Positions 4,725 through 47,580 of a DNA stretch of 47,582 nt are shown piece by piece. The translations under genes and the position numbers were made by a program. Origin of the DNA: a virus. Numbering within the stretch: position 1 is the stretch's first letter; every line of letters starts with the position of its first letter. A model generated the notes under the pieces. That model saw only the letters and a program-made list of their open reading frames with translations. It did not search any database and had not been told where the DNA came from. The stretch lies in the IMG/VR virus record IMGVR_UViG_3300048591_001401, positions 1 through 47,582 of that record. The stretch is one strand, 5' to 3'.

Positions 4725-4981
4725 GGCTTTTGGAAATTTTTCAGGTATTCGCGGATAAATGATAGCTCCATGATTGAAGTTTTGCAAGCATCGTCGTTGC
4801 CATCGAGCAAATTTGTTGCAATGAGGCTGATGGTGTCTGATATTTTTTCGCGGAGATGCTTGATTAGATGATTGTCGTGTTCCTGGAAATCTTTTAAAAG
4901 CTCGATTAATTTTGGGGTAAGAATAACCCCTTCGATTTCGATGTGGTTTTTTACGGAATTTTCGTTTAATTTTGTTGTCAT
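4721..4981 (-). CDS. Hypothetical 86-residue helical protein
   Basis: The start is the ATG at 4981 (MTTKLNENSVKNHIEIEG); the reading frame extends further upstream only through a hairpin. The sequence is predicted by eye to be mainly helical, with heptad-like Leu and Ile spacing around residues 20-55 (LTPKLIELLKDFQEHDNHLIKHL). It has no known domain. Its stop overlaps the next ATG. A strong hairpin at 5000-5036 lies immediately upstream, so expression may be uncoupled from the KilA-N gene. Confidence 0.65.
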   Translation of the reverse strand: MTTKLNENSVKNHIEIEGVILTPKLIELLKDFQEHDNHLIKHLREKISDTISLIATNLLDGNDDACKTSIMELSFIREYLKNFQKP

Positions 4982-4999
4982 AATTCGTTTGGATTTAAT

Positions 5000-5036
5000 C
5001 CCCCGGGATAAAGGTGTTTCGAGCACCTCCCGGGGG
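5000..5036. terminator. Two-part hairpin, probable terminator
   Basis: The outer stem CCCCCGGGA / TCCCGGGGG encloses an inner stem AGGTG / CACCT. A T run follows on the plus strand, but genes on both sides are on the minus strand, where it lies between the stop at 5047 and the ATG at 4981. Outer stem, inner stem and junctions closely resemble the hairpin at 28507-28545. Confidence 0.65.
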
Positions 5037-5046
5037 GTTTTTTGTT

Positions 5047-5232
5047 TTATTTGCTCTCGAAATTTATACATCCGAAGTTTTCGCCTACTTCGCATAAAGG
5101 AATTTTAGTTTTAGTTAAATCATCAAAAACCGTCTGGTTTTTTTTTATTAATTCTTTGTTACCAAACATTACACAGCTTCCAATATGGCTTTCTTCGTCG
5201 TGGATAAACCACACACACTCTTTACATTTCAT
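5047..5232 (-). CDS. Small cysteine-containing protein
   Basis: A 61-residue protein with five cysteines, two of them as CKEC at residues 3-6 and others at positions 20, 47 and 55. The spacing could support metal binding, but it does not match a zinc ribbon I can name. Its ATG overlaps the stop of the KilA-N gene (ATGA), so both are probably expressed from the switch at 5790-5900. Function unknown. Confidence 0.65.
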   Translation of the reverse strand: MKCKECVWFIHDEESHIGSCVMFGNKELIKKNQTVFDDLTKTKIPLCEVGENFGCINFESK

Positions 5233-5789
5233 TTTTGCTCCTCCTGTTTAGGTTGATTAAATAAATCCCAAGTCTCTTTAAATTTAGTGCGGGTAAGGTT
5301 GGCCCTTTCAGATTTCTCGCCTTTAAGTTCATCTTCAAGTTGAAGATACTCTTCGAAATCATCACCACTTTTGTCGTTCTTTTCCTTTAACTCAAGAATT
5401 CTTTTCTGAAGTTCAACAGTTCTTTCAATCGATTTCACCTGTGACTGAGCAAAACCAAATAGCATTTGCTCAATGGTCATAAAAATCCATAGCTCAAATT
5501 CAGGATTTAACCATGCAGCAAATTTTAAGGCTAAAATGCGGTGCATCCATGTGCCTGATTTTTGTTTTCCAGACACTAAATCTTCCCTGTTTTTAACTCC
5601 TAAAAAGTCGGAATTCCGACTATTTAGACAAGCAAAAATGAAATTTTCAGTGCTTTCATTTTCCAAAAAGTGAGTTACTTTTTTTCCAAAAACATTTGCC
5701 ATTTGTGTGGCGTTAACCATCACATTTCTTTCTTTCATGAAGGGTTCAAAATCAATTTTAAAGCCTTCGTAATCTTTTTTGAAAATCAT
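5229..5789 (-). CDS. KilA-N domain protein (antirepressor type)
   Basis: This 186-residue protein carries a KilA-N domain in its first 110 residues: VMVNATQMANVFGK near residue 23, then KSGTWMHRILALKFAAWLNPEFELWI around residues 77-102. The KilA-N fold binds DNA and is found in phage antirepressors and poxvirus proteins. The C-terminal 75 residues are highly charged and likely coiled coil. It is transcribed divergently from a ribbon-helix-helix gene across an AT-rich region with a palindrome at its centre, so a regulatory switch is the natural reading. It is not possible to say whether it acts on the phage's own repressor or on a competing phage. Confidence 0.85.
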   Translation of the reverse strand: MIFKKDYEGFKIDFEPFMKERNVMVNATQMANVFGKKVTHFLENESTENFIFACLNSRNSDFLGVKNREDLVSGKQKSGTWMHRILALKFAAWLNPEFELWIFMTIEQMLFGFAQSQVKSIERTVELQKRILELKEKNDKSGDDFEEYLQLEDELKGEKSERANLTRTKFKETWDLFNQPKQEEQK

Positions 5790-6655: not shown

Positions 6656-6844
6656 TTATGGCTTTATTTCGAGTTTCAAGTATTTCAGTACTTTTTCGAT
6701 ATCGTCAATGGGCATGGGGCGGATGCCTTTGAGGAAGTTGAAAAAGTTTTGATAGTCGATGGAGTTGTCGATGGCGCATTTGCGCTTGGAGATTTTCAGT
6801 TCTTTGAGGCGGTCGGCAATTGCGGTGCGGATCATTTTGTTCAT
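6656..6844 (-). CDS. Small XRE-like HTH protein
   Basis: This 62-residue protein reads IADRLKELKISKRKCAIDNSIDYQNFFNFLKGIRPMPIDDIEKVLKYL in outline (residues 9-57), a compact five-helix arrangement like Cro/C1-type helix-turn-helix proteins, with the recognition-helix region around SIDYQNFFNFLKG. Its ATG overlaps the recombinase stop codon (ATGA), so it is translated with the recombinase. It might control recombinase expression or direction of recombination, as excisionase-like partners do, but that is inference. Confidence 0.65.
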   Translation of the reverse strand: MNKMIRTAIADRLKELKISKRKCAIDNSIDYQNFFNFLKGIRPMPIDDIEKVLKYLKLEIKP

Positions 6845-7800
6845 TTTTTGTCCTCCCCAAAATTAGTGTTTTTCTTGAAAAACGGATGGGCGGCCAGTTC
6901 GTTGGCGTTCTCCTGCTTGTCGATGCGGATGTACCGGAAAAACGAGGATTCGGTGCGGTGGCCTGTGCATAGCATGATTTTGGCGACTGGCACCCCTGCG
7001 AGGTACATGTTGGTGGCGAAGCTGCGGCGGGCTGTGTGCGAAGATACGAGGCTGTGCTTGGGCAGTTTTTTCTTGACAACCTTGAATCCTTCGGTGCGTT
7101 CGACGAGTACCGGGTCGCTGATTTTGGCGCGGCGGCAAATCGTTTTCACGATTTTGTTGAAATTCTGTTGGCTGGAGTTGTATTTTGGGAATTCGCCGTT
7201 GTTGCGTTTCAAAACATCGAGGATCATCCAATGCACCGGCACGATCACTTTTTCGCCCGTTTTTTTTGTTTTGAGAGAAAATGTGCCGTTGAGCATGTTC
7301 TCGGTGCCCAGCTTGGCGTAGTCGCTATACCTCAATCCGGTGCAGCACCCGATGATGAACCTGTCGCGGACCAGGGCAGCATCTTTTTTGAGCTTGAGGG
7401 CGTTGATGGTTTCGATTTCGGCGGTGGTAAGGTAGATTGCCACGGATTCCTCGGTTTTTAGTTTGTATTCGTGAAAGGCCATTTCGGTTTTGTGGCCATC
7501 ACGGGCGGCGGCGTTCAAGGCGGTTTTCAACTGTGCGGCATAGCTGCGCATTGTGGAGTTGCGGAAGTTGTGTTTGTTTTTGAGGTGGAAAACAAAATCT
7601 TCGAACAGGTTGAACGTGAAGCTGTCGGTCATGAGCACTGTTTCGCGGAGTTCCTGGAACTCTTTGATTTTTTCGGCCAACGCCCAGAACTTGCGTTTGT
7701 ATTCGCGGGGGCGGCGGCTGCGGTTGGCGTATTGGGTGATGTACTTAGCGAGTTCTACTGGCTGTGGGCTTTTTTGCCCAAAAAAGTTTAACTTTGGCAT
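6841..7800 (-). CDS. Tyrosine recombinase
   Basis: A 319-residue tyrosine recombinase, the family of integrases and XerC/D-type enzymes that cut and rejoin DNA through a covalent 3'-phosphotyrosine. The catalytic set is visible: Arg157 in TGLRYSD, probable Lys180, His255 and Arg258 in SSHTARRSF, His281 in TGHRTESS, and nucleophile Tyr290 in FFRYI. The N-terminal 120 residues form the SAM-like arm (FEDFVFHLKNKHNFRNSTMRSYAAQLKTALNAA). It is distinct from the plus-strand integrase at 29519-30676 and lies in the accessory block between terminase and portal. It could be a second integration system, a dimer resolvase, an invertase, or a relic of another element. Confidence 0.9.
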   Translation of the reverse strand: MPKLNFFGQKSPQPVELAKYITQYANRSRRPREYKRKFWALAEKIKEFQELRETVLMTDSFTFNLFEDFVFHLKNKHNFRNSTMRSYAAQLKTALNAAARDGHKTEMAFHEYKLKTEESVAIYLTTAEIETINALKLKKDAALVRDRFIIGCCTGLRYSDYAKLGTENMLNGTFSLKTKKTGEKVIVPVHWMILDVLKRNNGEFPKYNSSQQNFNKIVKTICRRAKISDPVLVERTEGFKVVKKKLPKHSLVSSHTARRSFATNMYLAGVPVAKIMLCTGHRTESSFFRYIRIDKQENANELAAHPFFKKNTNFGEDKK

Positions 7801-16266: not shown

Positions 16267-17229
16267 TTAAGATGAAACATATTTGTCCACAAAGGCTGAT
16301 TTTGCAAGGGCGCGGCTCAGTTGTATCGCTACATCCAAACTTCCTACCTCGTCAATCAAACCCACCTCTTTGGCGTTAAGTGAATTATTTTTGTCGTTCC
16401 GGGCGAAAAACATCCGCCCGTTCAAAATCCCTGGGATTTCGAGTTTCAATTTTGCGCCCCTGTTTTGTTTCACTGCATTTTGGAATGCAATGGCCAGCGG
16501 CGACAGCTCCTCCTGTTGGATTTCTTCATATTTCCCTTCCAAAGCAAGTTGGAACGGTTTGTTTTTGTAGTCCGATTCTGGGGCGTAAATGGTGTGGCGC
16601 ACGTAACCCTCTTTTTCGTAATAGGGTATCACGTCCCAAAAACCCATCATCACCCCGATGCTGCCAAACTCGGCGCTCACGTCGTTGTTTGCCACAATGC
16701 GGGTACATGCCGATGCTGCCCAGTAGGCGGCACTGGCGGCAAGGTCGCAACTGGCAATTACAGGTTTGCCGTGTTGGGTGCGTATTTTCATGATGGATTG
16801 GACGATTGGCGCAACAGCGTCAACAGCTCCACCGCCCGAATCAATATCGAGCACCACCGCCGAAATATTTGGGTGCGAACCGGCTTCGAGTGCAATGCCG
16901 GCAATTTCTTCGGTGCCATAAGTGCATTCGGTGCCATATTTCAACATGGTACCTTTCAGCGGGATGATGGCTGTTGAACCGCGCGGGGCTTTGTCGAAAG
17001 AATTTGCGGCAAAAATTTCGCCCGATTTGGAAATGGCGCAAAAGGGAAATGGTTCCCTGGTTTTGTTCAAATCGGTAGTTTGGTCACTTCCCGACCAATC
17101 GCGGTTCATCAACTGCTGAACCGTTGCGCCCTGCGCCATGGCGAAATCAGGTTTCATCGCCCAGATCCCACGGTAAATTTGCGAGGTAAGCAAAAATTGC
17201 CACTGTTTTTGTAATACAGTATCTTTCAT
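16267..17229 (-). CDS. S49-family prohead protease
   Basis: This 320-residue serine protease belongs to the SppA/S49 group used by many phages to trim capsid scaffold. Seen here: VVLDIDSGGGAVDA (residues 125-138), the nucleophile Ser166 in CDLAASAAYWAAS, the following EFGSIGVMMGFWDV segment (187-200), and a candidate general-base Lys at 222 or 224 in SDYKNKPF. The family uses a Ser-Lys dyad. It sits just before the capsid gene with a 12-bp gap, as expected for a protease whose substrate is the capsid N-terminus. No signal peptide, so it acts inside the prohead in the cytoplasm. Confidence 0.9.
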   Translation of the reverse strand: MKDTVLQKQWQFLLTSQIYRGIWAMKPDFAMAQGATVQQLMNRDWSGSDQTTDLNKTREPFPFCAISKSGEIFAANSFDKAPRGSTAIIPLKGTMLKYGTECTYGTEEIAGIALEAGSHPNISAVVLDIDSGGGAVDAVAPIVQSIMKIRTQHGKPVIASCDLAASAAYWAASACTRIVANNDVSAEFGSIGVMMGFWDVIPYYEKEGYVRHTIYAPESDYKNKPFQLALEGKYEEIQQEELSPLAIAFQNAVKQNRGAKLKLEIPGILNGRMFFARNDKNNSLNAKEVGLIDEVGSLDVAIQLSRALAKSAFVDKYVSS

Positions 17230-17703: not shown

Positions 17704-17759
17704 TCTCTGTAATTGTTATGGGCAGAATGCCCGGTTTTTTACAATTTTTCTGTAATTTT

Positions 17760-18302
17760 TCAATAAGTTTCTGATTTTTCGAGGGTTAGCAATCTTTTGA
17801 ACTGCAATTCCTCTTTTTTCCGCTTATTTCGGTAGTCAATTTTCTTGATCATGTCGAAATTGATTGAGTTGTTGCGAACGTTCAGACCGCGCAAAATGCT
17901 GTTCACAATTATCCGCTGCTCCATCTTCTCGTCTTCGTACCCAATCCTGAACCGTTCTTTCACCCAGCACCTGAATTCATACTCAATGGCATCGGAAATT
18001 TTTGTTTGCGCCCATCCCGGGATGAAAACAAAACGGTTTTGCAACCAGTACCCTATTTCAGTTCTCGGCGTTGGCAAAATAAATGTAACCGGGTGGTCCA
18101 TCATAGGACGGTTGCTCTGAAAATCTCCTGCCATGATGTGCGAGAATATCAGGCGGCCAATATCCTGCCGCCTGGATAGGATGATGTGCCTCGATTTTTC
18201 GGGCGTCGAAAATATGAACCGGAGGAAGGCTTCGTGAACTGGGTGCATGTCTATCGTGATGCGGGGTTTTGTTTCGAGGTCGATTTTTGGCGTCGCTTTC
18301 AT
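17760..18302 (-). CDS. First gene of head operon, hypothetical
   Basis: The start at 18302 (MKATPKIDLETKPRITIDMH) gives 180 residues; an ATG 27 bp upstream is possible but has a less typical leader. The protein is basic, with a helical N-terminal half (HEAFLRFIFSTPEKSRHIILSRRQDIGRLIFSHIM in outline) and a charged C-terminus (YRNKRKKEELQFKRLL). It might be DNA- or RNA-binding. It heads the long minus-strand operon, just downstream of the repeat array at 18461-18730, so an early assembly or regulatory role is possible. Confidence 0.7.
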   Translation of the reverse strand: MKATPKIDLETKPRITIDMHPVHEAFLRFIFSTPEKSRHIILSRRQDIGRLIFSHIMAGDFQSNRPMMDHPVTFILPTPRTEIGYWLQNRFVFIPGWAQTKISDAIEYEFRCWVKERFRIGYEDEKMEQRIIVNSILRGLNVRNNSINFDMIKKIDYRNKRKKEELQFKRLLTLEKSETY

Positions 18303-18460
18303 ATAGGCTATTTTGATAGCCCAGCACAACAGTGGCGAAGATAGTTTTTTTCAGCAATATTTATGTTTTTTGGTTGTTGTTTTTTGTGTTGAAAATATTA
18401 TTGTTAAGTAAGCACCAAAAAAACCATACCCCTGTTTTTTGAGCAAAAAACGGCAAAAAG

Positions 18461-18730
18461 TTGTAATTTGTTGTTTTTGCCCCTTGTAACATCAATAAAA
18501 TCAATGAATTACAAATTACAAACCAATTTTTGCCAAGTTTGTAATTTACTGATTATCAGCCATTACAAAACAGCATTAAGTTTGTAATTTCTGTAATTTG
18601 GAGTAATAGCAGACTATGTAGTATTTTTCTTTTCCCCGAAATTACAAATTCAATTTAAGTTTGTAATTTTTTTGTAATCTCTTAACTCCCTGATTTCTCG
18701 AATAATAAACATTAAATTACAAATTACAAA
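18461..18730. repeat. Iteron-like array of TTGTAATTT motifs
   Basis: About a dozen copies of TTGTAATTT or its complement AAATTACAA lie in 270 gene-free bases. Plus-oriented copies: 18461-18469, 18539-18547, 18582-18590, 18592-18599 (TGTAATTT), 18661-18669 and 18671-18678; complement copies: 18507-18514, 18513-18521, 18562-18568 (ATTACAA), 18639-18647, 18714-18722 and 18721-18729. Three plus copies share a longer AAGTTTGTAATTT context, and two complement pairs overlap by one or two bases. Such density and two orientations point to a protein-binding region: a replication origin, an operator field or a late-promoter control region. Confidence 0.85.
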
Positions 18731-18848: not shown

Positions 18849-18873
18849 AAAAAAACCCGCTACGATGTGCGGG
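18849..18873 (-). terminator. Intrinsic terminator closing the early region
   Basis: CCCGC (18856-18860) pairs with GCGGG (18869-18873) around an 8-nt loop, and seven T follow on the minus strand. It lies 32 bp after the stop of the RHH gene at 18905 and separates early genes from the repeat array. Confidence 0.8.
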
Positions 18874-18904
18874 CAGCATGGTGGATTGAAATGTTATTCG
18901 CCAC

Positions 18905-19087
18905 TCAAAATGGCAGCTTCTCCCTGGTTCTTTTTTCCTTGATTTCCTTCCAGTCCCTGCCGATTTTCTCCTTGATTGCCTGCCTGATGAACTGCGAAAC
19001 ATTCACGTCGTACTGCTTCAATTTCGCCAAACTTTCTGCTTGTGTTTGCGAAATCATAATTACCTGTCTTTCTGTGAATTGTTTCAT
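18905..19087 (-). CDS. RHH-like DNA-binding protein ending in KLPF
   Basis: A 60-residue protein whose middle (QTQAESLAKLKQYDVNVSQF then IRQAIKEKIGRDW) fits the helix-turn-helix part of a ribbon-helix-helix protein, with VSQFIRQAI resembling the second helix start. It is the last gene before the terminator and the TTGTAATTT array, so the array could be its binding site. Its last residues REKLPF resemble the C-terminal LPF of the SSB-like and primase proteins nearby. Function otherwise unknown. Confidence 0.65.
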   Translation of the reverse strand: MKQFTERQVIMISQTQAESLAKLKQYDVNVSQFIRQAIKEKIGRDWKEIKEKRTREKLPF

Positions 19088-19633: not shown

Positions 19634-20602
19634 TTACTCGCATAACCCATAAAAACTCATACAACTCGTGCCATATTCTTCCTCAAATAAATCTCCGGTT
19701 GCATTTTTGTTTTCAATATACTTTGTAACGTCTGTTATTGTTGGGTACTTTTTATTTGTCATAAATCGCTTTGGAATTTTATCAGGCGGGAATAATGTAG
19801 AGCCTGTTTCTTTTTCAAATTCAGCAATCTCTTTTATTCGCTCTGGAAAGAAAGTATTTATACTGCGAATATCAACCTGATTGCTCATAATACAGGGAAA
19901 ACAACCTACCCTTTTCATTCCAAAACTATAAAGCGGGTTTGGTTTAAATCCGTTAGCTAATGAATAGTCTATAACTTCCTGTCCAGTCCAATCAAATACA
20001 GGGCGCAAAATATCATCAGCGTATTTCTTGCAAAATGCAAATACTTCTTTCTTCCGGTAAGTATGGAATTTTTCGTCTTTAAATCCTTTCGATAACCGTT
20101 CTTTTGCCTTTGCAAGTTTTTTGGTCTGTACTAATGTTAAAAATGGTCTTTTCCCCAATTCCTCAATTACAATTTCATTTGAAGTGTATGGCTGAAAGTA
20201 AAATTTAAAATAGGTGCATTGTTTGCTCATTTTTGAACGTGAAAAACTTTCGTCACCTCTTATTCCTTGAATTACTAAAATATCTTCATGTACTTCATCC
20301 AAAATATAATCAATCATTGGAATAGTTTTAAGCTGCTCTGTGCAAAATCTGGCTTTCGTGGAAGGGAACCGGCCTTTCTTTTTAACCATATCCAAAAAGC
20401 CGTCATACTTTTTACTGGTTAGCGTTATAATATCTAAATTCATTCTTTCATTAGTATCCTGAATGTATTTGTATGTTAACTCGCTTTCCCATTTGGTATC
20501 ACAAAAAACAGTCAAGAACTCTTTTGATAAATTACTCTTAACCCAAAGTAATGAAGCCATTGAATCTTTTCCACCGGAAAACTGTACTATTAATTTTGTC
20601 AT
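19634..20602 (-). CDS. PAPS-reductase-family (PP-loop) protein
   Basis: A 322-residue protein of the phosphoadenosine phosphosulfate reductase / PP-loop ATPase family. Seen here: the PP-loop SGGKDSMASL (residues 9-18), FCDTKWESELTY (33-44), the RFCTEQLK segment near residue 86, RPVFDWTGQEVIDY near 200, and two Cys groups, GCFPC around 234-238 and the C-terminal SCMSFYGLCE. The family activates substrates by adenylation and includes CysH, DndC (sulfur in the DNA backbone) and tRNA-modifying enzymes. Phages often carry members of unknown substrate. No dnd partner genes are seen, so DNA sulfur modification is not supported. The four Cys suggest metal or iron-sulfur binding. Confidence 0.85.
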   Translation of the reverse strand: MTKLIVQFSGGKDSMASLLWVKSNLSKEFLTVFCDTKWESELTYKYIQDTNERMNLDIITLTSKKYDGFLDMVKKKGRFPSTKARFCTEQLKTIPMIDYILDEVHEDILVIQGIRGDESFSRSKMSKQCTYFKFYFQPYTSNEIVIEELGKRPFLTLVQTKKLAKAKERLSKGFKDEKFHTYRKKEVFAFCKKYADDILRPVFDWTGQEVIDYSLANGFKPNPLYSFGMKRVGCFPCIMSNQVDIRSINTFFPERIKEIAEFEKETGSTLFPPDKIPKRFMTNKKYPTITDVTKYIENKNATGDLFEEEYGTSCMSFYGLCE

Positions 20603-22080: not shown

Positions 22081-25074
22081 TCAAAACGGCAACTTCCCCT
22101 CTTCTTCTTCGCTCAAAACATCCTCGGCATCGGGTATGTCCTCCGGTGGCGTTGTTGATATATAGAAGCATTCGGTTGTTTTGCCTTCAATTGTTTTCAA
22201 TATGCGGCGGTCTTCCTCGGCATTGCGCCCGGTGCAGAGTTTTGCGGGGTTAAGCTCGTAGCCGTAATATTCGCACCAGGCCGCCAGGCTGTGCTTGAAT
22301 TGCGGTGCCTTGAATTTGCGCCCCTGCAAATCGGTGAGCGTGGCTTTGAATGCCTCGAATGCCGTTTCCCTCTTGATTATCACGTTGAAATAGCCTTTGT
22401 CGTCGGGGCTGATTTCGGGGCGTGGTTCTGGCGGAACACAGAAATATATGTTTGCCCACTTGAAGAATTCCTCGTCTTTCGACACGCCACGGACCATCAG
22501 GCGGCGCAACTGCCGTTTTTCTAAGTTGGCCATTGGCGGCTGTATCTTGAAAAACCGCATCTGCAACTGTATGCAGTAGGCCATGAAATTGTAGAACTTG
22601 TTCCATTCTTCTTCCGTGAACTCGTCGAACAGCATCTTCCCGAATTTCGACAACGGCGACCGGCTTTCGCGGTAATCGTTGTATTTTGTTTTTTCGTGGT
22701 AGTAGTCGCTCACTGCGGCGTTGAGTATCCTTGCTATTGTTGAATTGTCGGTGTTTTGTAGTTCAAAATTCGATGAAATAATCATTTTCCCCGATTCATC
22801 GTAATCAAGGATTTGTTTCGAAATGTGCTTTGAATTTACCTCGCGCTTTCCGGTTACCTGTGTGTAGAAAAAATTGAATTCGGCAAATTCGTACAAATCA
22901 TCTACCTCGATGAAATTGTGAAACTTGGTGTAACCGTCGTAGATGAATTCTGTTTTTTCGGTAATATCTTTGCGGCGGCCACCAATATAAAACGATGGGC
23001 GTGTTTTGCTCATGCCCATCGTGAGCAGCGATTTACCCGATCGACCGCTCGACTGGCCAATGTCAGAAATTTTCATATCCTGAAGGAAACAAAGCCACGG
23101 TTTGCCGGGGTTCTTGTATTGCGCCGTCATGTAACCCAGCACAAACATAAGGTTCACAAGCAGCAGGTCCTGTTCTTTTTTCTCTTCCGGTGTGAGTGCA
23201 ATTTTATCTTCCAATTCCTTCCTCCAATATATGTGCGCCAAATCTTTCAGGAAGCGCACCCAAATGAAATCTTCATCGTTGATTGTTATTTCGTAGCGGT
23301 CGAGTTCCGGGAAGTTGGCCAGCTCCACATTGATGTTTTCGCGTTGGTGGGTGGTGGTTGCATTTTTCAGTTTCGTGAGCAATTCGGCATAGGCTGCGGT
23401 GGGTTCAATCTCTATGGGCGGTTTGGCTTCCTTGCGGATGTTCAAATCAATGCAGTGCGAAATTTCGGTGTCGTTTATTTCGAGTTTGCCCAGGATAAAG
23501 TTTGGCACATCATCATGTTTCACGCGCTCAATGGCTTCGGGCGTGATTTTCAGGCTGCCATTTTTGAAATGCAGCCACTCGATGCCCTTTTTGTGGTTGC
23601 GGAATTCGAGGTCGATTTCCTTGAGTTCCTGCAAATTGTTTTCGCTGATTTGGTTGGAGGAGTTGATTTTGTTCAGGATGGCCACCTCGTCCATGAGGTT
23701 CTTGCTGCGTATCCAGTTTTTCGTGAAGCGTTTGATTATTTTCTTGATTTGCTCAGGGTTGATCAGTTCAACCACTTTGCCATCGATTTTGGCGTAGCAA
23801 TACCCTGCTTTGCGGTGATATTTGCTGTCGGTAACATAGAAGCCGTTCGATTCAAGGAAATAGTAATAGTTCTCAAGGTTCAGGTTATAGTTGATTTTCT
23901 TTTCGCCTTTGACTTTTTCTATTGATTTGCTCCAGAAGCGCATAGGGAAAGCGCGGCGTTTCAACACGCCAAACTGGTGGATGGTTTCGTCTAAGTCGTC
24001 GCCGGCAATATTGATGAAATCCTTCACGTCCTTGCAAGGGTTGCCGCGCCAGTCTTTCTTCAGCTTCAACCAGTCGGGCAGTTGGATTGTGCATAGGTTC
24101 ATGTGTTTGTGCGCGAACTCCATGGCGTTGCGTTTGCCCGTATCGTCAAGGTCCATTAATTGAAAATGGTTTTCGCACATGTCATCCAACTCCGAAAAAT
24201 CATCCTTGCCGATTTTTGCCGATTCGCTGTTGAGCCAATACACGTGGTGGCCAAGGCTGGCAACATTCAGCGCATCGCTTTCGCCAGAGCAACGTATTAA
24301 GTCAACAATTTTTGGCTGTTTGTGGTCGCTTCCGTTATATTCATATTCTCCGGTTTCTTCGTTCACAAATTCATTGTCGACAGCCTGCAGCACATCGAGG
24401 CCAAAAATGTAGTTGGTGGGTTTTTTGCCTGCATAGCTGAACCTGTATTTTTTGTCGGGTTCGTGGGGCTTGTATATTTTTTTGAATTTCCCGCAATCCA
24501 TCACAAACATGGGGTAATGCTCGGTGGCCGTGAAAATATGCACAATGTCGCGGTTATATTTTTTCGAGTAGCTGCAAAGCTCGTATTTCTCCAAGGCTTT
24601 GAAATGGTATTTTTCAAGCAGCTCGGCCGTAACATAGCGGCCAATGGCCTGCAGGTCGGTTTCTGTTGGCACCGGCTTGTACGAAAAATTGTAGTCGCCT
24701 TTTTTGTCGGTGGCGGTAACTTCGCGCCAACTGTATTCGGCCGCATACACGGGGCGGTTGAACCCGCTGCCCTCTATTTCGTGCCTCACTATCACTTCCT
24801 CGATGAACCTGAGTGCATCAATATACATCAGCCCTTCGCGATACATCACATAGCTGATGCTGTTCAAGCTGTTCACTTCCATTTGGTTGCCAAAATCGGT
24901 AATGCGCCACTGCCCTTTGAAAAAGCTTACATGTGCGCTGGGGGTTTTTTCTTCGCCCCGCTCCTTGAACATGTGCTTGCGGTCGTTGAAATCGACGTTT
25001 GGAAAATAGTGTTTGAAAACGTCAAAACCGCCGTTGGTGGCATCGAGAATTTTGTCAGATTCGATATATTTCAT
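22081..25074 (-). CDS. Primase / SF3-type helicase fusion
   Basis: A 997-residue replication protein. The N-terminal part contains a zinc-less CHC2-like region (KTPSAHVSFFKGQWRITDFG, residues 43-62) and a Toprim-like core: Glu265 in CSGESDALNVASLG and Asp308-x-Asp310 in LMDLDDTGKR. The C-terminal part is a P-loop NTPase: Walker A GQSSGRSGKS (673-682) and acidic IEVDD (722-726), followed by ISSNFELQ. This order, Toprim primase then D5/SF3-type helicase, is common in phages and primes and unwinds DNA at the replication fork. It ends EEEEGKLPF, an SSB-like acidic tip. Length is normal for such fusions. Confidence 0.9.
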   Translation of the reverse strand: MKYIESDKILDATNGGFDVFKHYFPNVDFNDRKHMFKERGEEKTPSAHVSFFKGQWRITDFGNQMEVNSLNSISYVMYREGLMYIDALRFIEEVIVRHEIEGSGFNRPVYAAEYSWREVTATDKKGDYNFSYKPVPTETDLQAIGRYVTAELLEKYHFKALEKYELCSYSKKYNRDIVHIFTATEHYPMFVMDCGKFKKIYKPHEPDKKYRFSYAGKKPTNYIFGLDVLQAVDNEFVNEETGEYEYNGSDHKQPKIVDLIRCSGESDALNVASLGHHVYWLNSESAKIGKDDFSELDDMCENHFQLMDLDDTGKRNAMEFAHKHMNLCTIQLPDWLKLKKDWRGNPCKDVKDFINIAGDDLDETIHQFGVLKRRAFPMRFWSKSIEKVKGEKKINYNLNLENYYYFLESNGFYVTDSKYHRKAGYCYAKIDGKVVELINPEQIKKIIKRFTKNWIRSKNLMDEVAILNKINSSNQISENNLQELKEIDLEFRNHKKGIEWLHFKNGSLKITPEAIERVKHDDVPNFILGKLEINDTEISHCIDLNIRKEAKPPIEIEPTAAYAELLTKLKNATTTHQRENINVELANFPELDRYEITINDEDFIWVRFLKDLAHIYWRKELEDKIALTPEEKKEQDLLLVNLMFVLGYMTAQYKNPGKPWLCFLQDMKISDIGQSSGRSGKSLLTMGMSKTRPSFYIGGRRKDITEKTEFIYDGYTKFHNFIEVDDLYEFAEFNFFYTQVTGKREVNSKHISKQILDYDESGKMIISSNFELQNTDNSTIARILNAAVSDYYHEKTKYNDYRESRSPLSKFGKMLFDEFTEEEWNKFYNFMAYCIQLQMRFFKIQPPMANLEKRQLRRLMVRGVSKDEEFFKWANIYFCVPPEPRPEISPDDKGYFNVIIKRETAFEAFKATLTDLQGRKFKAPQFKHSLAAWCEYYGYELNPAKLCTGRNAEEDRRILKTIEGKTTECFYISTTPPEDIPDAEDVLSEEEEGKLPF

Positions 25075-25080
25075 AGAAGG

Positions 25081-25407
25081 TTATAGTTTTTTCAGGAGAA
25101 GGAAATGTACTTTCTGGGTTTCAACAATCTCGGGGTAACGCTTCAGCAACACATTCTTCAGCTTTGGAGCTTCAATTCCGTAGGCGAACAGGCTGAAAGC
25201 TTTCATGGCTTCAACATCATCAATGCCAAATACCCAAACGTCATGCAATTCGGCAGTGAAAGAGCTGTCGTGCCTTGGGTCTTTCAACTCGAAAACCGGT
25301 TTCGCATAATCAGGGTCAAGCTGCTTAACCGTTGGTGCTGCAACCGATGGCGGTTGAGCGATAATGAAAAAGTCATGCTCCGGACGGCTGTGGGTAATTT
25401 TTTTCAT
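25081..25407 (-). CDS. Hypothetical early protein, 108 residues
   Basis: A soluble protein containing SFTAELHDVWVFGIDDVEAM and a basic C-terminus (KVHFLLLKKL). No family recognised. Its ATG overlaps the stop of the ASCH gene (ATGA) and it lies 6 bp before the primase/helicase ATG, so it is co-translated with replication genes. Confidence 0.65.
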   Translation of the reverse strand: MKKITHSRPEHDFFIIAQPPSVAAPTVKQLDPDYAKPVFELKDPRHDSSFTAELHDVWVFGIDDVEAMKAFSLFAYGIEAPKLKNVLLKRYPEIVETQKVHFLLLKKL

Positions 25408-28836: not shown

Positions 28837-29214
28837 ATGAATCTAAACGAGGAGGATATCCGCAGGGCCTTAAAAAAGTATCAACAGGAAAATAATAAAA
28901 CTGGTGTGCAAATGACTGAATTGCTTGGCATGTCAAGCACTTCGATGTATAGCCAATACAAAAACGGGGAAACAAAAGAATTGAAAGCTGCGGCCCTTGT
29001 GCGGTTTATTTTGAATACAAAAATTGATTTGGAAAAATTCTTGAACAAGAATTTCAAGGTTGAAGAAGAAGAATTACTTGCGGTTTCTGAAGCGAAAATT
29101 AAATATTTCGAATGCCCGGAGTGCATCAAAAAGCAAAAGGAGATCGACGACTACCGGCAGAAATACATTGAGTGCTTAGAGGAACTGGCTTGCAGGCAGA
29201 AAAAAACTTCATGA
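28837..29214 (+). CDS. Phage repressor-like HTH protein
   Basis: A 125-residue plus-strand protein. Residues 1-60 (EEDIRRALKKYQQENNKTGV, QMTELLGMSSTSMYSQYKNG) look like a helix-turn-helix with recognition helix near SSTSMYSQYKNG. A C-terminal helix contains CPECIKKQKEIDDYRQKYIE and LEELACRQ, with a CxxC pair and coiled-coil character suited to oligomerisation. It faces an RHH gene across palindromic operators, and the integrase lies downstream on the same strand, so it is the best candidate for the lysogeny repressor. Confidence 0.7.
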   Translation: MNLNEEDIRRALKKYQQENNKTGVQMTELLGMSSTSMYSQYKNGETKELKAAALVRFILNTKIDLEKFLNKNFKVEEEELLAVSEAKIKYFECPECIKKQKEIDDYRQKYIECLEELACRQKKTS

Positions 29215-29300
29215 GGGTAGCCCACAACGCGGCTTGGGACAAGAATCCGAAACCGAGCAGTCCTTTCACGCGGACGGGCAACCCGTTTTTGGATTTGTGA
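29211..29300 (+). CDS. Possible 29-residue coupled microprotein
   Basis: An ATG overlapping the repressor stop codon (ATGA) opens MRVAHNAAWDKNPKPSSPFT followed by RTGNPFLDL. The sequence looks more like coding than random DNA. Function unknown. Confidence 0.45.
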   Translation: MRVAHNAAWDKNPKPSSPFTRTGNPFLDL

Positions 29301-29518
29301 GCGTTGAAAATTCATTCAAATTTTGGTTTTCAAAAATGGCTAATATGTTGGGAAATAGTGAGATATGTGGGGTGTTGGGTACTCCCGCCCCGGGTACGGA
29401 ACAAAATTACACACCGCCGGAAGCCTGCACAAACAGGGGTTTTCGGCGGTTTTGTTTGGGGAAAGTGGGGCAAAAATTCATTCAAATTTCAGGTTTCATT
29501 CAAATTTCATTCTGAAAA
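29301..29518 (+). other. Gene-free region upstream of integrase, candidate attP
   Basis: No gene is supported. The stretch holds three direct repeats of TTCATTCAAATTT, at 29311-29323, 29477-29489 and 29495-29507, the last two 18 bp apart and just before the integrase ATG. GGGTAC occurs twice around 29379-29399. Arm-type integrase sites and a core site next to the integrase gene would look like this, but no host junction is available to prove it. Confidence 0.5.
29414..29449 (+). terminator. Terminator after repressor gene
   Basis: CCGCCG pairs with CGGCGG, enclosing CCTG / CAGG with a 6-nt loop; TTTTGTTT follows on the plus strand. It separates the repressor transcript from the integrase. 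Confidence 0.7.
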
Positions 29519-30676
29519 ATGGCGGAGGCGAAGGTGTTCATCAATAGCAATTCGGTCAAAAAAAATGGCGAGGCGGCGGTGTACTTGGTGGTGCACCTTG
29601 GGTACAAATCGCTGAAATTCCACACGGGCGTGAGCTGTGCGCCGGATGATTTCAACGAAAAAACGCTGCGCATCAGGGGCAAATCGCAGAAAGTGAAGGA
29701 CGATAACCTGATTATCGAGAAATCGCTGGCTTTGATGAACGAGATTTTTGTGAGGTACCGGCTGCAGCACATCCAGCTCACACCGGAAGCTTTGAAAAAC
29801 GAATGGAAAAACCCTGCCAGGCGCATCGATTTCTACGCTTTTTTTGACGAGGCGGTGCTGGAGCGGAAAAAAGAGATAAGGAAGCAGACCTGGAAAAACC
29901 ACCACTCGGAGATCAACAAACTGAAATTGTACAGGCCGAAATTGGCGTTTGCCGATATTTCAGCCGATTTTTTGGACGGCTATAAGCGTTGGTTGAAAAC
30001 GGAGCGGAAAAACGACATCAACTCTATTTTCACCTCGATGAAGGTGTTGAAGACGTATATCAACATTGCGCTGAAAAAAGGGATCATCACGGAAAACCCT
30101 TTCAACAATGTGCGGACAAAGCAAACGACACCGGAGATGGTTTTCCTTTCGCCGGAGGAATTGAAGCGGATGTGGGAGCTGTACCGGGAAGCCAAGATTG
30201 AGCCTGGGAAAATGACGGTGCTGCGGCATTTCCTGTTCATGTGCTTCACGGGGTGCAGGATTTCGGATTTCAGGGCGTTGGAAAGGTTCAACGTGAACGG
30301 GAAATTGCTGATATATTACCCGATGAAAACGCGGGGAGTGAAAAAAACGCCAGTGAAAGTTCCGCTCACAAAGTATGCGCTGCAATTAATTTCAGATGAA
30401 AACAGCGGGGATGATAGGCTATTCCACCCGATCACGGAGCAGAAAATGAACGTGGCAATCAAGAAAATTGCGGCATTGGCGGATGTTTTCAAGCCGTTGA
30501 CAAACCACAGCGCACGGCACACCTTTGCAACTACATGGCTGGCAACGATGCACGATCTGGCGGCGTTGCAAAAATTGCTGGGTCATTCGAAAATTACTGA
30601 CACGATGAAATATGTGCATGTGACGGATGAGATGCTGATTGAGCAGATGGGGAGGTTTGAGGGGAAATTGTTTTGA
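29519..30676 (+). CDS. int: Phage integrase (tyrosine recombinase)
   Basis: This 385-residue integrase catalyses site-specific integration and excision of phage DNA. Domains: an N-terminal arm-binding region with VFINSNSVKKNGEAAVYLVV (residues 6-25), a SAM-like core-binding domain around 100-195, and a catalytic domain with Arg247 in TGCRISDF, probable Lys270, His330 and Arg333 in NHSARHTF, His356 in LLGHSKI and Tyr365 in MKYVH. The layout is typical of Bacteroidetes phage and conjugative-element integrases. It is on the plus strand, opposite to the lytic genes, next to the repressor. Start is the ATG at 29519, 11 bp after the last TTCATTCAAATTT repeat. Confidence 0.95.
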   Translation: MAEAKVFINSNSVKKNGEAAVYLVVHLGYKSLKFHTGVSCAPDDFNEKTLRIRGKSQKVKDDNLIIEKSLALMNEIFVRYRLQHIQLTPEALKNEWKNPARRIDFYAFFDEAVLERKKEIRKQTWKNHHSEINKLKLYRPKLAFADISADFLDGYKRWLKTERKNDINSIFTSMKVLKTYINIALKKGIITENPFNNVRTKQTTPEMVFLSPEELKRMWELYREAKIEPGKMTVLRHFLFMCFTGCRISDFRALERFNVNGKLLIYYPMKTRGVKKTPVKVPLTKYALQLISDENSGDDRLFHPITEQKMNVAIKKIAALADVFKPLTNHSARHTFATTWLATMHDLAALQKLLGHSKITDTMKYVHVTDEMLIEQMGRFEGKLF

Positions 30677-47526: not shown

Positions 47527-47580
47527 GATTGGGGGGATTGAAAAGATTGATGAGATTGATGAGATTGATGAGATTGAGGG
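47527..47580. repeat. 9-bp tandem repeat array, right end of window
   Basis: Six contiguous units: GATTGGGGG, GATTGAAAA, three GATTGATGA and GATTGAGGG. An isolated GATTGATGG is at 47503-47511. It continues the array at 2-91 if the ends are joined. Confidence 0.95.

Follow-up and report, generated by a model that had tools for sequence, protein, structure and literature searches.

The window analyzed here, a 47,582-bp IMG/VR virus record, comes from a temperate Bacteroidota phage with relatives in Prolixibacteraceae, Marinifilum, Flavobacterium, Bacteroides, and Polaribacter; no DNA relatives of it were found in the phage collection. Because a 9-bp tandem repeat, AGATTGATG, is present at both record ends (1-70 and 47536-47577), the contig probably closes on itself within a repeat. 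The genes around the repeat array studied here all point leftward. Read in that direction, the order is a primase-helicase (25074-22081), small genes, a PAPS reductase, an RHH protein (19087-18905), a hairpin (18874-18855), the array (18729-18461), a 189-aa protein gene (18329-17760), and the head genes. The features are as follows:

6841-7800, minus strand: tyrosine recombinase
16267-17229: S49 head protease
17760-18329, minus strand: gene for a 189-aa basic protein, the flank of the array in relatives' loci; used as a synteny marker and rejected as a ligand
18461-18729, no strand: iteron array of 13 near-copies of TTGTAATTT in both orientations, proposed as a replication origin from repeat counts and from arrays at the homologous position in relatives
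18506-18521, minus strand: overlapping iteron pair with a 7-bp offset, GAATTACAAATTACAA, whose first letter differs from AAATTACAAATTACAA
18714-18729, minus strand: overlapping iteron pair with a 7-bp offset, exactly AAATTACAAATTACAA, at the array end facing the primase
18855-18874, minus strand: leftward terminator-like hairpin and T-run ending the early operon just ahead of the array
18905-19087, minus strand: small RHH/CcdA-like protein, phrog_25647 by family match; not conserved with the arrays
22081-25074, minus strand: 997-aa primase-helicase of type A, the proposed initiator and predicted array binder
22141-22539, minus strand: part coding for the C-terminal domain, a predicted winged helix (AlphaFold2, pLDDT 89.2, pTM 0.83)
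22192-22194, minus strand: codon for residue 961 (Thr here), located in the wing and changing together with the base that follows TGTAA in the array
29519-30676, plus strand: tyrosine recombinase

A single phage thus carries two different tyrosine recombinase genes (6841-7800 and 29519-30676). The PAPS reductase-like gene (phrog_424; 19634-20602, minus strand) lies between the primase and the array and is missing from the first relatives fetched, except for a near-identical contig. A gene for a 108-aa protein of no known family (25081-25407, minus strand) immediately precedes the primase in both of the primase types described below.

The preliminary description had reported a dense array of about a dozen motif copies in both orientations. 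Counting every TTGTAA core plus CTGTAATTT at 18591 on both strands, we find 13 sites in a stretch that is 74% AT. The array contains no long open reading frame and follows the hairpin at 18855-18874, in agreement with its description as a gene-free region after the early terminator. All eight exact copies of TTGTAATTT in the window lie within 18461-18729; with one mismatch allowed, the window holds 51 copies compared with 30 expected, and 11 of the 51 are inside the array. Markov resamples of the array's own 270 bp contained on average 0.05 copies of TTGTAATTT and never more than 2, compared with the 8 observed. In an unbiased scan for clustered 8-mers, the array reached a -log10 P of 19.8, and the best of 40 window shuffles reached 9.8. 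The motif is not equally dense in other AT-rich gaps: each of the 33 further 270-bp windows that reach 68% AT or more contains 0 or 1 TGTAATT, and the array claim stands. The single TGTAATT copies at 17708-17714 and 17750-17756 are present, as are three copies with the common context AAGTTTGTAATTT (18535, 18578, and 18657). An overlapping pair had been said to occur twice; this is exact for the pair at 18714-18729, while the pair at 18506-18521 has another first letter. The locus shares clustered, short, near-identical intergenic repeats with iteron origins of the P4/SaPI kind, and its proposed role as a field for cooperative protein binding is supported at the level of sequence. GC skew, which had been suggested as a check, gave no signal and does not change over at the array (56 loci, p = 0.18).

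Using the 189-aa gene as a query, we retrieved 29 loci, most of which have an array in the intergenic region ahead of that gene. The repeat differs by lineage (TTGTAATT, TTGTAACC, GCGAAGTAAGC, or GGTTGTAAG), and a comparison of all upstream genes showed that the motif tracks the primase-helicase. Two mutually exclusive primase types occur at these loci. Phages with type A, the type of the window, have TGTAAT or TGTAAC arrays; type B primases have a DnaG zinc finger and a Toprim domain and, in the 189-aa-gene set, are always accompanied by the GAAGTAAG motif. The window and L024 have 189-aa proteins that are 80% identical, whereas the L024 primase is unrelated and DnaG-type, and its repeats are GAAGTAAGC. 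Conversely, the primases of the window and L035 are 80% identical, their 189-aa proteins are distant, and both phages have TTGTAATT; L038 and L040, near-identical in the 189-aa protein, differ in both primase and array. Read from these sequences, the three pairs amount to natural exchanges in which primase and late gene have been uncoupled. The check for loss of the array in relatives keeping the flanking genes was informative: those with the downstream gene but another primase lack TTGTAATTT, yet a different array occupies that position. Arrays seemed to be absent from L040 and L033 because they sit just past the 900-bp cutoff. Two short opposite-strand genes, HicAB toxin-antitoxin-like by eye only, lie between the array and the 189-aa gene of L040 (8739-10001).

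We fetched 187 further loci via alignments of both primase types. About 80% of them have an array with a -log10 P of at least 10, compared with 0.5% of local Markov shuffles; the other ~20% have no strong array at that threshold. An intergenic array lies downstream of the primase in 84 of 108 type A and 59 of 80 type B loci, and type B arrays often lie no more than ~130 bp from the primase stop. Of 64 type A arrays, 62.5% have a sense-strand terminator-like site in the preceding 400 bp, compared with 3.8% for random stretches and 1.6% after the array. Usually there is one strong TTACA-type array per locus, although second arrays may be missed because the loci are partial contigs. Some type A phages (e.g., L096, L098, L100, and L229) have other cores, GTTAAAGA and GTCACAAA. 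In L027, an array of six AAAAGTTCC copies (6779-6985) lies right behind another replication gene (665 aa, DUF5906). Type B arrays right behind the gene are very varied, as in L147 (9932-10136), L144 (3513-3686), L145 (7555-7784), and L158 (7512-7767), with repeats ACTACCAA, ACCTACAC, ATGTAGCC, and TGCACACA; these four are ready material for a second residue-base analysis. An FtsK_gamma winged-helix domain is inserted in some DnaG-type phage primases (L024, 2784-6398). As the type B reader this domain was rejected, being present in L009 and absent from L131 though the motif is common to both.

The primase-helicase gene of the window lies ~3.4 kb from the array. Type A primases have no family of their own in PHROG, Pfam, or NCBIfam; distant members match the DUF5906 helicase family, and the Walker A motif GRSGKS is invariant. 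For a primase domain in the same protein, the signs are a weak Toprim match in L111 and the annotation of the homologue in Polaribacter phage Leef_1 as DNA primase/TOPRIM. The full-length AlphaFold model was too poor (pLDDT 46.5) and was replaced by a model of the C-terminal domain, built with AlphaFold2 from 83 sequences, which predicts a confident winged helix composed of a strand, three helices, and a two-stranded wing. Foldseek matches of this domain are weak. A C-terminal winged-helix DNA-binding domain, as in initiators at iteron origins of the P4/SaPI kind, is present here by prediction only. Residue 961 falls in the first wing strand of the predicted domain.

We then compared primase residues with array letters across 67 related, nonredundant type A phages, scorable only for arrays with a TTACA core. 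Residue 961 is K or R in all 46 phages with TGTAAC arrays and T, S, Y, Q, or H in all 21 with TGTAAT arrays. On a tree built without residues beyond 850, and hence without the C terminus, all 11 independent switches agree (sign test, p = 0.001). Among 887 columns, column 961 is the sole separator of the two groups, the next best having an overlap of 0.32. Since column 961 had been chosen on a discovery set of 21 close relatives, in which columns 686 and 961 both separated the groups, we count the phages outside that set separately: 38 and 10 are concordant, none is discordant, and one is mixed (L087 is a mixed case). Column 686 failed in the larger set (overlap, 0.32). L231 was excluded from the count, since its one TTACA-type array sits upstream of a primase that is partial and 28% identical. 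Two cultured phages that came to light later also fit: Bacteroides phage BT-TP2 has K at 961 and TGTAAC over TGTAAT by 5 to 1, and Leef_1 has L at 961 and TGTAAT over TGTAAC by 13 to 0. Their arrays are at about 4907-5501 (BT-TP2, PQ571279) and about 29000-29520 (Leef_1, MT732473). In the few cases available, finer letters also differ, with K accompanying GG or AG; R, often TG; T, S, or Q, AA; Y, CA; and H, TA, and these letters too may be coded by residue 961. A contact that sets Lys or Arg against G-C, and smaller or neutral residues against A-T, would be chemically plausible.

The layout of the sites is conserved while their letters change. In the window subfamily, the array end near the primase follows the pattern + 7 + 42-51 - 11 - 19-21 +, the window's own spacings being 7, about 45, 11, and about 19. 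This pattern occurs in TGTAAT phages (the window, L059, L064, and L230) and in TGTAAC phages (L065 and L066, and L063 and L067 without the first site). Because TGTAAT and TGTAAC phages interleave on the primase tree, the letter changed several times across the whole array. We consider it somewhat more probable than the contrary that one wing residue of the initiator is a specificity switch in a large family of Bacteroidota phages, in which exchanging Lys/Arg and Thr/Ser/Tyr/Gln/His swaps the array base with the spacing kept. If so, these phages would form swappable origin-compatibility groups.

An array whose base has switched 11 times in step with a single residue of the primase-helicase is most simply explained by that protein binding it, and the sequence comparisons strongly support such binding. 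By analogy, the array is most likely an origin, since P4 alpha, SaPI Rep, and Cch2 bind iterons downstream of their own genes to start replication. We therefore regard it as very likely that the array is the iteron field of the phage replication origin, bound by the 997-aa primase-helicase through its C-terminal winged helix and working in a P4-alpha-like manner. In the proposed mechanism, the winged-helix domain would bind the TTGTAATTT repeats, with wing residue 961 reading the base that follows TGTAA: TTGTAAT(T) for the Thr of the window, TTGTAAC for the Lys or Arg of relatives. Once loaded as a helicase on the AT-rich array, the protein would open the DNA and prime replication in the way that alpha of phage P4 acts at ori/crr. 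Replication initiation at the array is the most likely of the functions considered, judging from these analogous systems.

The preliminary description treated a replication origin and control of the head operon as equally possible; comparison supports the origin well and leaves head control as a possible second function. A field of operators or late promoters that activates the head operon, with the primase-helicase or some other phage protein as its ligand and replication starting elsewhere, would suit the array's usual place, after the early terminator and ahead of the late genes, and there are 9-of-12 promoter-like matches, though at background frequency. Yet the array letters track the replication protein and not the late gene, many type B arrays lie right behind the primase stop, and the L040 array is set apart from the late gene by other genes, all of which makes this reading improbable. 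Because of the usual position of the array, a role in head-operon or late-transcription control may exist as a second function. We give similarly little credence to copy-control or incompatibility iterons, which would bind the primase-helicase at a place other than the start site. P4 does have iterons at both ori1 and crr, ~5 kb apart; here, however, one strong TTACA-type array per locus is usual, a count to be read with the partial nature of the loci in mind.

Both neighboring genes adjoin the array and had been named as candidate ligands, and RHH proteins often bind repeated short sites. The RHH gene is present only in the window phage and a near-identical contig, however, and many relatives without it bear arrays. 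The basic 189-aa protein (delimited as 17760-18302 in the preliminary description) remains 80-97% identical while the motif changes, and at 80% identity the change is complete. An operator for either protein is accordingly very improbable. We judge the same of an attP whose arm-type sites would bind an integrase: short repeats, both direct and inverted, are arrayed at such sites too, and one of the phage's two tyrosine recombinases has an arm-binding domain, but the integrase genes (6841-7800 and 29519-30676) lie ~11 kb off on either side, away from the array, and it is the primase with which the motif co-varies, residue by residue.

To our knowledge, few replication origins have been described in Bacteroidota phages, and our literature search turned up no paper dealing with iteron origins there. 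The replication origin proposed here offers a route to finding others from sequence, together with a named candidate reader protein and a residue-to-base rule that can be tested by gel shift. For phages that coinfect a cell, the rule predicts which would be able to replicate the other's origin and which would not. Arrays that repeatedly change all their letters while keeping their layout are also a good system for studying the coevolution of an initiator with its many sites.

Several known systems resemble this locus in part. Close relatives among geminiviruses differ in residues of their initiator, Rep, and in step with these in the letters of their iterons (PMC12548392), but Rep is an unrelated rolling-circle initiator of plant viruses with few iterons of 5 to 6 nt, compared with 8 to 15 sites here. 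The pri-rep-ori of Gram-negative PICIs pairs a primase-replication protein with a cognate iteron origin, as shown by plasmid maintenance (PMC6092414); there, two iteron sets flank an AT-rich stretch, whereas in the window it is the array that is AT-rich. SaPI Rep and SCCmec Cch2 are self-loading initiator helicases whose C-terminal domain recognizes iterons directly downstream of the helicase gene (PMC7581432). In the window a C-terminal domain is likewise proposed to recognize iterons downstream of its gene, although helicase families and hosts differ. Among the window's relatives, as at iteron origins of the P4/SaPI kind, the repeats are evolutionarily linked to the phage's own primase-helicase.

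In P4 the initiator is one protein, alpha, whose C-terminal winged helix binds short repeats lying in either orientation (PMC4234260). In the P4 record, alpha is followed by talpha and by crr with 8-bp repeats in both orientations, and our 8-mer cluster scan, run on P4 as a positive control, recovered the annotated 8-bp repeats at ori and crr. The window has the same order of gene, terminator, and array, and the ++--+ spacing of P4 crr (9, 43, 18, and 14) resembles its own (7, 45, 11, and 19). The repeats themselves differ (GGTGAACA in P4, TTGTAATT in the window), and P4 is a satellite, whereas the arrays of the window's kind are in full-size Bacteroidota phages. No homology to the P4 alpha C terminus was detectable (hhalign probability, 0.2%), and this comparison of the origin-binding domains gives no support to membership in the P4 alpha family by descent. 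The best reading, by analogy, is that the system of the window works like P4 alpha/crr, a likeness of working without descent implied.
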